Positions 44,879 through 49,003 of a stretch of DNA of 64,000 nt are shown one piece after another (position 1 is the stretch's first letter; each line of letters starts with the position of its first letter). The stretch is from the NCBI RefSeq assembly GCF_000410515.1, contig NC_021500.1, positions 744,001-808,000 on the forward strand, in the 5' to 3' direction. The position numbers and the translations under genes are program-made. The notes under the pieces were generated by a model. The model did not search any database and was not told the origin of the DNA. It was given only the letters and a program-made list of their open reading frames with translations. This DNA comes from Enterobacter sp. R4-368. GTDB lineage: Bacteria > Pseudomonadota > Gammaproteobacteria > Enterobacterales > Enterobacteriaceae.

Positions 44879-44905
44879 TAAAGTTACTCATTCCTTTGCC
44901 GATGA
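44879..44905 (+). promoter_or_regulatory. Sigma-28 (FliA) promoter of the flagellin gene
   Basis: TAAAGTTA, 11-base spacer, GCCGATGA. This differs from the sigma-28 consensus (TAAAGTTT-N11-GCCGATAA) at two positions and lies 29 bp before the flagellin start. Confidence 0.9.
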
Positions 44906-44933
44906 TTAATTCATTAGCGGTCTGAATGAATTA

Positions 44934-46388
44934 ATGACGGTAATGCAGGCAATCAATCATAATGAGTTTATCGGGCTGAACCTCACTACCCGAAAAAAAA
45001 CGTCTTCTTCGCTTCAGGAAAGTATTGAACGTCTGTCATCGGGGTTGCGCATTAATGGCGCGAAGGAAGATGCTGCCGGGCAGTCTATCGCTAATCGCAT
45101 GCGCTCTAACGCCAGTGCGGATAGCGTGGTATCACGTGGTCTTGATGATGCTATCAGTATGGCACAGACCGCCGATGGCAGTTTGAGCACTGTTAGCGAA
45201 CTTCTGATCCGGGCGAAAAGCCTGGCCATACAGTCAGGAAATAGCACCCTCTCGGAGAATGACCGGCAAAGCATTCAGAACGAATATCAAAATATTCTTA
45301 ACAATATTCAGTCAATCTCAGAGGGTACCGAGATTTTTGGACGCTACCCGTTGGCTACTGATTCACCCGAACTGCCACCGGAGTTGATTGGTGATGTGCC
45401 GCCGTTAAACGTCAAGTTTCCGGTTCAGGGTACCAATTATTCGTTCAGTTCAGGCATTGTCTCACTGGCCTACATCCCTGCCGGTTCGACGAATATTGCT
45501 ATTACCATTGATTCACTGGGCCTGGATGATGACATCCAGTTATTCACGCGCGATGGTAAGCATCTGGCCGGTACACCAATTAACGGCGCAGCCCCGGACT
45601 ATACATGGAAAAGTCGTGGCATCACGGATTCCGCGAAAGCGACCAGCCGGGTTCTGACCGAAGCCAACGGTTTTGCGCATGGCGCTACCTACGACGATTC
45701 TTTACTGATTGATGGCGGCGCAGCCTGGGCGCTAAACGGTAGCGAAACGCTGAATTACAACGGTATGGCTATTGCTTACAGCGGAGATGGTGACCGTTAC
45801 GAACCGGGCAATGCTTACAATGATGGTAGCAACGGTTCAAACCGACTTGAGCGCGTAAAGATCGATAACGTTACGGAAGACTTGGTGGTAATGATCGTCG
45901 GCAGTGGCTCTTTTACCAGCAACTTAACCTGGGGAACTCTGCCAAAACCAACAATAACGCCGGCGGAACCGCCGAAGCAGAGTCGCCCGTGGGAGGTCGT
46001 AACCAGCGCGAACGTTGGGGATGATATCCAATCCGTAACCATGCCTGCCACTCCGGCTGATGTGAAATCACTGGGTTTAAACGCGACATCCTTGCAAACG
46101 GCGGCCTCAGCAGGTGTCGCAATGGGTGCGCTTGACAAAGCACTCGAGAAAGTAAGCGGCTGGCGCGCGCAATATGGCGCGTATATCAATCGTTTTGAAT
46201 CGAATAAATCGGTACTGGCACAGCAAAATGTTGCAACACAAGCGGCGAAGAGCCGGATTGAAGATGCGGATTACGCGCTGGAAGTCAGTAAGATGGCAAA
46301 AGCGCAGATATTACAGCAGAGCCAGGATATGGTGCTAAAAGTCGCTAACCAGTCTGCAGAAAATATTCTGGCGCTTCTTCGTAGCTAA
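44934..46388 (+). CDS. Orphan flagellin with an unusual central domain
   Basis: 484 residues. Residues 1-135 are a flagellin D0/D1 domain (SIERLSSGLRINGAKEDAAG, QSIANRM, QTADGSLSTVSELL). The C-terminal 110 residues are the matching D1/D0 helices (RFESNKSVLAQQNVATQAAK, ending ANQSAENILALLRS). Between them about 220 residues form a beta-rich insert with acidic stretches (DSLGLDDDIQLFTRDGK, SGDGDRYEPGNAYNDGSNG), reminiscent of PPC-like or calcium-binding beta sandwiches; no HExxH protease motif is seen. No other flagellar gene is adjacent, but a sigma-28 promoter is. Either methionine 1 or 4 could be the start; no strong ribosome site. Probably a minor or alternative filament subunit. Confidence 0.9.
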   Translation: MTVMQAINHNEFIGLNLTTRKKTSSSLQESIERLSSGLRINGAKEDAAGQSIANRMRSNASADSVVSRGLDDAISMAQTADGSLSTVSELLIRAKSLAIQSGNSTLSENDRQSIQNEYQNILNNIQSISEGTEIFGRYPLATDSPELPPELIGDVPPLNVKFPVQGTNYSFSSGIVSLAYIPAGSTNIAITIDSLGLDDDIQLFTRDGKHLAGTPINGAAPDYTWKSRGITDSAKATSRVLTEANGFAHGATYDDSLLIDGGAAWALNGSETLNYNGMAIAYSGDGDRYEPGNAYNDGSNGSNRLERVKIDNVTEDLVVMIVGSGSFTSNLTWGTLPKPTITPAEPPKQSRPWEVVTSANVGDDIQSVTMPATPADVKSLGLNATSLQTAASAGVAMGALDKALEKVSGWRAQYGAYINRFESNKSVLAQQNVATQAAKSRIEDADYALEVSKMAKAQILQQSQDMVLKVANQSAENILALLRS

Positions 46389-46494
46389 CATTGTATTTTC
46401 ACTTCATTTAATAACAGCACTTAATAACAAAATCATTTTTCGCCCGCAGCGAAATAACCTTATCTTACAAAATCCGCATTGCCGCACAAATACA

Positions 46495-46525
46495 AAAAAC
46501 CGGTACGACTAAATCCGGTTTTTTT
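46495..46525. terminator. Terminator between flagellin and small exported protein genes
   Basis: AAAAACCGG, 11-base loop, CCGGTTTTTTT; suited to the plus-strand flagellin and, by its A run, to the convergent minus-strand gene. Confidence 0.75.
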
Positions 46526-46553: not shown

Positions 46554-46769
46554 TTAGTTCCACTTGCCCGCAACCAGGGTATGTGCGTTAAACGCATTGT
46601 CATTTGAACCCTGCGTTGAATGAGACACCGGAACCATATTGGAACCCGCTTCAATGTTGGTGATGTTAGTGTTAGTCTGGCTGGCAGTTACTGCAGGCTG
46701 AGCCGCGAAAACGCCAAAAGAGAGTGCAGAAAGCACGACGGCGACCGCAGCGGTTTTGATTTTTTTCAT
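46554..46769 (-). CDS. Small exported protein, unknown function
   Basis: 71 residues from ATG 46767-46769. Clear signal peptide MKKIKTAAVAVVLSALSFGV then FAAQP, with cleavage after FAA. The mature part (about 48 residues) is rich in N, T, S and A, with no cysteine. The signal resembles those of small DUF1471 (BhsA-like) stress proteins but the mature part does not match them. An upstream extension of ten residues is unlikely. Confidence 0.65.
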   Translation of the reverse strand: MKKIKTAAVAVVLSALSFGVFAAQPAVTASQTNTNITNIEAGSNMVPVSHSTQGSNDNAFNAHTLVAGKWN

Positions 46770-47003
46770 AATTAAATTCTCATACTTGAATAACAACATT
46801 AACTGGCTGGGCTTTTTTTGCCCGTGTTGTTAGTGTAGATCTGGATCACACTTTTGCACAGTCAATTTATTTATCTATTCGTGTCAAATAAACTGAATGT
46901 GTAACCCAAATATTAATTGTGAGTAAATTATGAAGAGAAAGGAATACTTAAGCGAAATTGAAAAAGGAATAGTAGAATGAAAAGAGCACAAATTAACAAA
47001 TAA

Positions 47004-48080: not shown

Positions 48081-49003
48081 ATGGCAGCTATATACACCCT
48101 TACGCTGGCGCCTTCGCTTGATAGTGCGACGCTAACGCCACAAATTTATCCCGAAGGTAAACTGCGTTGTACAGCACCCGTTTTTGAGCCTGGCGGCGGC
48201 GGCATTAATGTTGCACGCGCGATTGCCCATCTGGGCGGTAAAGCAACGGCAATATTTCCCACTGGCGGCGCAACGGGTGAACATCTCACCGCATTACTGG
48301 CCGATCGACCGTAACCGTAGCCACACAAGACTGGACGCGGCAGAACCTGCACGTTCATGTCGAGTCCAGCGGTGAGCAATACCGGTTTGTTATGCCTGGT
48401 GCCGCATTGAATGAAGACGAGTTTCGCCAGATTGAAGAGAAAGTCCTGACTATTGAGCGCGGCGCGATTTTGGTGATAAGTGGCAGTCTGCCTCCGGGTA
48501 TCGAGGTTGAAAAGCTGACACAGTTAGTTAAGTCCGCGCAAAAACAGGGAATTCGTTGCATTGTCGATAGCTCGGGCGAGGCACTAACCGCAGCGCTCGC
48601 AATTGGTAATATCGAGCTGGTAAAACCCAACCAGAAGGAGTTGAGCGCGCTGGTCGGCAGAGAGCTTACCCAGCCTGATGATGTGCGCAAAGCCGCGCAG
48701 GAGATCGTTCAGGCGGGCAAAGCCTTGCGCGTGGTCGTCTCCCTTGGCCCGCAGGGAGCGCTGGGCGTGGATGCTGAAAACTGTGTTCAGGTCGTACCGC
48801 CGCCGATGAAAAGCCAAAGCACGGTGGGCGCTGGCGACAGCATGGTTGGCGCAATGACGCTCAAACTTGCACAAGATGCGCCTTTTGATGACATGGTGCG
48901 TTTCGGCGTCGCCGCCGGGAGTGCAGCCACCATCAACCAGGGTACTCGTTTGTGCGCGCAGGAAGACACGCAAAAGATCTACGACTATTTGCGCCATGCC
49001 TGA
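48081..49003 (+). pseudogene. pfkB: 6-phosphofructokinase II, frameshifted
   Basis: Would encode the minor glycolytic PFK (ribokinase family). The first frame from ATG 48081 (perfect AAGGAGG before it) reads IYTLTLAPSLDSATLTPQIY to ATGEHLTALLADRP and meets TAA at 48312-48314. Homology resumes in another frame at GTA ACC GTA (VATQDWTRQNLHVHVES) and continues to the end, including TVGAGDSMVGAM with the catalytic aspartate. Compared with E. coli, about ten bases are missing after the LLAD codons, a net shift of one. The C-terminal catalytic half is not joined to the start, so no intact enzyme is made unless a sequencing error is the cause. Confidence 0.9.

Follow-up and report, generated by a model that had tools for sequence, protein, structure and literature searches.

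An unlinked flagellin of Enterobacter sp. R4-368 with a sigma-28 promoter of its own and an outer domain conserved like its core

What does one more flagellin gene do in a genome that already holds several, when it lies far from the flagellar clusters and has its own promoter and an unusual middle part? The question is raised by a 64,000-nucleotide stretch of Enterobacter sp. R4-368, hereafter the window (NC_021500.1, positions 744,001 to 808,000; C2:744001-808000 of the 5.16 Mb genome). Its open reading frame (ORF) at 44934..46388 on the forward strand (C2:788934) encodes a flagellin of 484 aa with intact D0/D1 ends, which we call the orphan. An earlier note, made from the letters of the window, had described intact ends, a FliA promoter, a non-standard central domain and no flagellar cluster nearby; these observations were confirmed, and the interpretation that it gave them was partly supported. 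Flagellin middles are usually regarded as the hypervariable, dispensable part of the protein. Judged from alignments of relatives, the outer domain of the orphan is conserved like its core, and a conserved surface domain in a gene found at scattered sites suggests a dedicated function of the filament surface.

The outer domain with its linker (residues 140-378, 45351..46067, forward strand; hereafter the insert) stands out by its conservation, by the confidence of structure prediction (predicted local distance difference test, pLDDT) and by hints of similarity to the pre-peptidase C-terminal (PPC) domain. In an alignment of the orphan and 56 of the 120 listed homologues (of 214 matches), thinned by hand, 48 of 239 insert columns were invariant versus 24 of 245 core columns, and in 1199 of 1596 pairs the similarity of the insert was above that of the core. 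Considering that these matches had been selected on the insert, the comparison was biased and was replaced by a matched one. The latter covered 23 of the 25 gene-carrying genomes found among 295 sampled, leaving out one gene with an internal stop (G028) and one split copy (G122). Across the 253 pairs, orphan proteins were 59% identical in the core and 57% in the middle, whose length was nearly constant (258-263 aa). For comparison, the other flagellin that matched best in each of these genomes reached 73% identity for the core and 18% for the middle, whose length ranged over 45-292, although these comparison flagellins were mixed orthologue groups, which lowers their identity figures. When gap columns were skipped, the values were 59% and 58% for the orphan versus 76% and 32% for the other flagellin. 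The middle exceeded the core in 73 of the 253 orphan pairs and in only 1 of 253 for the other flagellin, and the orphan middle was more alike than the other middle in 251 of 253 pairs. The core of the orphan was itself diverging faster than that of the comparison flagellins.

Ratios of nonsynonymous to synonymous substitution rates (dN/dS) were obtained against close relatives, the closest named one among seven loci compared being Kosakonia pseudosacchari JM-387 (96% identical). For the insert, dN/dS was 0.038, 0.032, and 0.050 against K. pseudosacchari, K. quasisacchari, and Enterobacter sp. Bisph1, at dS of 0.45, 0.58, and 1.74, respectively. In the same order, the N-terminal part gave 0.091, 0.070, and 0.081 and the C-terminal part 0.039, 0.160, and 0.066. 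In the comparison with Enterobacter sp. ENT03, the N-terminal part and the insert had reached saturation at synonymous sites, and the C-terminal part gave 0.143.

No sequence relative of the insert was found among solved structures in the PDB, solved flagellins with their D2/D3 domains included (best E 0.99 for the insert alone and 0.71 for a profile of the domain, both chance-like), which bears out the view that the central domain is non-standard. No Pfam family scored above its cut-off. The PPC domain (PF04151) reached 15.5 bits versus the 25.9 required, and weak matches to it at E ≤5 occurred in 4 of 10 member inserts. In the predicted structure, pLDDT was 82-95 in every 10-residue block of residues 141-380. 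With the whole model, Foldseek returned flagellins in all 50 of 227 rows listed, which is uninformative on the insert, and VIA-align likewise gave flagellins among the 50 rows listed. A low-confidence model of the insert alone had parts of ADAMTS13 and Csp proteins as its best structural matches; Foldseek found none at E ≤0.001, and four Csp rows stood at E 0.007-0.03 with a probability of 0.98-1.00, versus at most 0.15 for the other 46 listed. This poor model and the weak profile matches point to a PPC-like beta-sandwich; a beta sandwich, as proposed earlier, is predicted, with the fold match coming from the low-confidence model.

Three short motifs stand out in the insert. DDD (residues 198-200, 45525..45533, forward strand), invariant in the 57 homologues, lies between the predicted strands E186-193 and E200-205; SGDGDRYE (residues 283-290, 45780..45803), invariant except for G286 (at least 90%), follows a strand; and EDL (residues 315-317, 45876..45884), again invariant, stands at the entry to one. 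Among the invariant residues of the insert are D198-D200, H210, D285, D287, R288, and E290. The acidic loops that they mark out probably bind metal and/or a ligand.

Both ends of the protein were typical of bacterial flagellins (FliC). Flagellin_N matched residues 7-140 (N-terminal D0/D1, 44952..45353, E 1.2e-27) and Flagellin_C residues 398-482 (C-terminal D1/D0, 46125..46379, E 3.2e-17), both over the Pfam cut-off and on the forward strand. A translation start at the ATG at 44943, giving 481 aa, is more likely than the first ATG at 44934, because K. quasisacchari has ACG in the latter place and because the length falls within 479-485 aa, most commonly at 483 or 481, in 92 of the 120 homologues listed. 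The orphan did not fall into the standard enterobacterial FliC/FljB subfamily (best NF005294, 186.7 versus 387 bits), and it reached the cut-off of no NCBIfam subfamily among the 25 of 27 families listed. One earlier statement proved wrong, namely that the key arginine of the TLR5-contact motif is replaced by lysine. The alignment places LIRAKSLAIQ of the orphan under LQRVRELAVQ, so that the equivalent of R90, which we take to be the key contact, is kept as R93, and the lysine (K95) corresponds to R92.

The near-perfect FliA promoter described before was found exactly at 44879-44905, upstream of the orphan, with the -35-like element TAAAGTTA at 44879..44886 and the -10-like element GCCGATGA at 44898..44905 (forward strand, spacer 11). 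The search pattern, TAAAGTTW-N11-GCCGATRA, follows what we take to be the sigma-28 consensus typical of late flagellar genes. This site, TAAAGTTA-N11-GCCGATGA, was one of only two exact matches in the genome, and at ≤2 mismatches the pattern occurred at 49 sites versus 10 for the same pattern read backward. At the level of sequence, the orphan is a candidate member of the sigma-28 (FliA) regulon. When about 150 bp upstream of the flagellin were scanned with spacers of 10-12, a site of at least 13/16 was present in 23 of 31 loci, the orphan's own included, versus 0.14 expected from first-order resampling of those stretches; two of these rows (G140 and ENT03) are one genome counted twice, which makes 22 of 30 genomes or strains, and the rows are related. 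Four further loci had a site of 12/16. The remaining four (L062, L063, L065, and L066), with only 9-11/16, carried a LuxR-family gene directly 3' of the flagellin, and the GerE domain was over the cut-off in all three of their proteins scanned. In this branch, FliA control looks as if it had been swapped for a local regulator. Downstream of the orphan, a terminator-like hairpin (46494..46524; 10 pairs, 11-nt loop, -11.8 kcal/mol, z -2.1) was equalled in stability by 6 of 200 shuffles, and it was missed by a simple terminator scan, which takes loops of 3-8.

In a class-wide sample, the domain was found at E ≤1e-20 in 1 of 369 genomes, that of the window itself, and it is therefore rare in the sample. 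Named matches also came from Castellaniella, Halomonas/Billgrantia, and Geopseudomonas, and phage records gave none at E ≤0.1. A database search with the insert alone returned at least 44 matches from a capped list of 7989 scored candidates; 33 of the 44 had a flagellin Pfam domain and 11 had none. Ten of the latter were judged from the table or, for P0134, as partial, and a stand-alone carrier of the outer domain may be among the 11. Six matches were inspected as sequences, and a 283-aa Billgrantia protein (P0145) had, by eye, a flagellin D1-like start and end. The insert profile also led to a fragment named flagellin of an uncultured Desulfovibrio (P0154), whose own search gave 4292 matches at E ≤0.001, many of the 120 listed covering part of the query. 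Four full-length proteins from this list (P0188, P0190, P0237, and P0182) could be aligned across the insert; all four retain GM, E315, and W333, and three retain DDD and NGM. These Desulfovibrio-related flagellins differ from the orphan in their flagellin backbone and in an extra stretch before the domain, and a Maridesulfovibrio flagellin of 384 aa from the same list (P0246) lacked the domain by eye. By alignment, then, the outer domain also sits on a clearly different flagellin backbone.

Neighboring genes, named by eye in unannotated genomes, divided the 31 loci into nine settings; six labels were assigned via same-genus relatives, which both 1.45 kb flanks of all six match. The gene lay between thrS and ydiY in 12 loci (Kosakonia, Enterobacter, and others), in an MFS/Cof setting in five, beside an ABC transporter and an aldehyde dehydrogenase gene in two (Leclercia), in an efp-like setting in two, and beside formate dehydrogenase genes in one. 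Four had the LuxR-family gene directly downstream, and three plasmid settings comprised two loci of Duffyella, one of P. vagans beside acetoin genes, and two Pantoea plasmids of 514 and 528 kb. Since the four LuxR loci shared no other neighbor, this label denotes a cassette and not one place; in three of these genomes (G105, G218, and G022), fliF was on the same contig, 45-75 kb away. On both the core tree and the insert tree, made by a quick method with no bootstrap, the nine labels required at least eight changes, the minimum possible, and the thrS label was not one clade (two changes on the core tree, three on the insert tree). Core and insert identities were correlated over pairs (0.85), as expected if the gene travels whole. 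In PLSDB, the 60 matching records were from Pantoea (55), Duffyella (3), and Pseudoalteromonas (2, at 32-33% identity), and family members were on Pantoea plasmids of 508-528 kb as well as on smaller ones of 131-211 kb. The thrS-ydiY gap was 324-1311 bp in 10 of 15 gene-less genomes, picked by hand, versus 2048-3195 bp in seven gene-carrying loci; in the other five, including the only same-genus one (G072), no ydiY turned up in the 1.5 kb examined. All 25 gene-carrying genomes had fliF versus 184 of the 270 without the gene, kinship and reduced genomes being uncorrected in this contrast. The locus of Leclercia adecarboxylata NCTC13032 (L015) showed many short ORFs where its relatives have whole genes, probably through assembly frameshifts.

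In the genome of the window, the orphan lies between thrS and a 251-aa gene, read as ydiY from gene order and without an NCBIfam match. The nearest flagellar gene found was fliA (C2:988723), about 200 kb away, and genome-wide searches for Flagellin_N, FliA, and fliF, the flagellar families covered, gave no further match in the window. The host is flagellate: it has two fliF genes, three FliA-family matches over the cut-off, and eight Flagellin_N matches, namely the orphan, five other flagellins (open frames of 420, 330, 308, 305, and 305 aa), and two read as FlgL from their sequences and neighbors. The 420-aa flagellin adjoins an ORF that we take to be fliD. Two findings that the earlier note had named as counting against its reading, a genome with no functional flagella and an insert aligning with ordinary D2/D3 domains, did not turn up: flagellar genes are present, and the insert matches no solved D2/D3 domain by sequence. 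One flagellin (L002, C2:4663k, 330-aa open frame) stood apart from the two main clusters, with an upstream 14/16 sigma-28-like site and an ORF nearby read as CheZ-like. Three closely similar flagellin genes formed a tandem (L068, C2:987500-1007000), each with a 13-14/16 sigma-28-like site at equal distance. The third FliA-family sigma factor (L018, C2:3721868-3722482) was over the curated cut-off, although the count of fliF was two. Within the window, an 81-aa ORF on the reverse strand (46554-46799) downstream of the orphan had relatives at the same place in two other loci (L009 and L051), and a pfkB-like gene (48081-49000) was split over two frames, which corresponded to residues 1-79 and 80-310 of the 310-aa K. 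pseudosacchari protein, by a frameshift either in the strain or in the assembly.

We consider it somewhat probable that the orphan is an accessory flagellin, encoded by a one-gene unit under FliA control, and that it displays a conserved, probably ligand-binding PPC-like domain. Having its own FliA promoter and hairpin, the gene would be transcribed by FliA when the motility regulon of the host is on, and its product would be secreted by the flagellar export machine. The D0/D1 ends would allow the protein to assemble together with the standard flagellins, probably as a minor component or as a segment of the filament, where it would show the beta-sandwich on the surface and its invariant acidic loops would probably bind metal and/or a ligand. 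A minor or alternative filament subunit whose outer domain may bind calcium or a ligand had also been proposed in the earlier note. In the main rival account, the outer domain is structural: neighboring copies would touch along the filament and thereby stiffen it or change its curvature for viscous or solid settings, and its conservation would come from subunit contacts, not from an outside ligand. Dimerizing, motility-modulating outer domains of flagellins are reported in passages of PMC8931119, and self-packing would also give a near-constant length and conservation. Nevertheless, the acidic clusters between or next to strands read as more like a binding site, as judged from their order along the chain and not from their placement in space, and the host genomes encode further flagellins whose middles are shorter or unrelated. 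Considering that the family is an extra gene beside these flagellins, an even lattice of outer domains could form only if the orphan supplied most of the subunits, and we regard the structural account as rather unlikely.

The 48 invariant columns of the insert, with the Asp, His, Arg, and Glu residues named above, might instead harbor the catalytic site of an enzyme analogous to flagellinolysin, and enzymatic flagellins do exist (PMC5595980). Against this, Pfam and PDB sequence searches gave no enzyme family, Pfam found no peptidase family in the orphan or the ten member inserts, and the four distant full-length proteins lose H210 in two cases and R288 in all four. The best fold matches, parts of ADAMTS13 and Csp, are presumably non-catalytic. 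An enzyme is thus improbable, and slightly more so is a reserve flagellin serving antigenic or immune variation, which was proposed in 2012 for the fliC pair of Pantoea LPP-1 (passage in PMC3505739) and would fit the plasmid location without linkage to the fli locus in Pantoea; an exposed domain conserved like the core is the opposite of antigenic variation. Finally, the site away from flagellar clusters and the broken copies in 2 of 25 genomes (G028 and G122) could mean that the gene is a chance survivor of a flagellar island that has otherwise been lost, but insert dN/dS of 0.03-0.05, sigma-28 sites scoring 13/16 or better in 23 of the 31 loci, and the absence of internal stops from the other 23 genomes make this highly improbable. 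Returning to the accessory flagellin, a tentative extension, possible rather than probable, is that a horizontally moving one-gene flagellin lets the filaments of unrelated flagellar systems carry one conserved domain that adheres in a metal-dependent way, plausibly to the surfaces of plants or other hosts.

The passages found in the literature did not describe the conserved outer domain of this family. Term searches of PMC7018530 and PMC4875605 gave no passage on the family, and phrase searches of the open-licence literature gave no paper that uses a set phrase for an orphan, solitary, or plasmid-borne flagellin or an orphan fliC and none joining flagellin with pre-peptidase C-terminal. As far as the passages seen go, five FliC paralogues are counted in Enterobacter sp. 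SA187, which itself carries a member of the family (P0026), and two fliC genes, not further specified there, decrease on roots (PMC5664417); flag-3 loci occur in 15 of 24 Kosakonia (PMC7526173), which fits a second flagellar system here, and K. radicincitans has two flagellar systems (PMC6125372). A family whose middle is as constrained as its core, which lies among metabolic genes or on plasmids and mostly keeps its sigma-28 switch, would show how a filament can be equipped in nature with a fixed function at its surface, and this is testable by gene removal in plant-associated bacteria.

Among known systems, flagellinolysin likewise carries an additional conserved domain in its middle part, according to passages of PMC5595980 and PMC7643111, but no metallopeptidase domain was matched in the orphan, the flagellinolysin family itself not having been aligned. 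The fliC pair carried by the Group II LPP-1 plasmids resembles the orphan family in its location on large Pantoea plasmids, not linked to the fli locus; the passage in PMC3505739 suggests phase variation for this pair and does not describe an outer domain. PPC-like accessory domains (Csp, the ADAMTS13 spacer, and the collagen-binding domain of ColG) resemble the insert in a tentative beta-sandwich match by structure comparison and in a weak profile match. The insert differs in having about 55-60 residues between its strands 209-212 and 271-275, in scoring below the Pfam cut-off, and in belonging to a flagellin rather than to a protease. Enterobacterial FliC/FljB (Salmonella FliC, PDB 1ucu and 9gnz) has D0/D1 ends that match those of the orphan and, as is typical of late flagellar genes, a sigma-28 site like the orphan's. 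In contrast to FliC/FljB, the orphan is unlinked, its middle has no match to solved D2/D3 domains, and its pattern of constraint is inverted.
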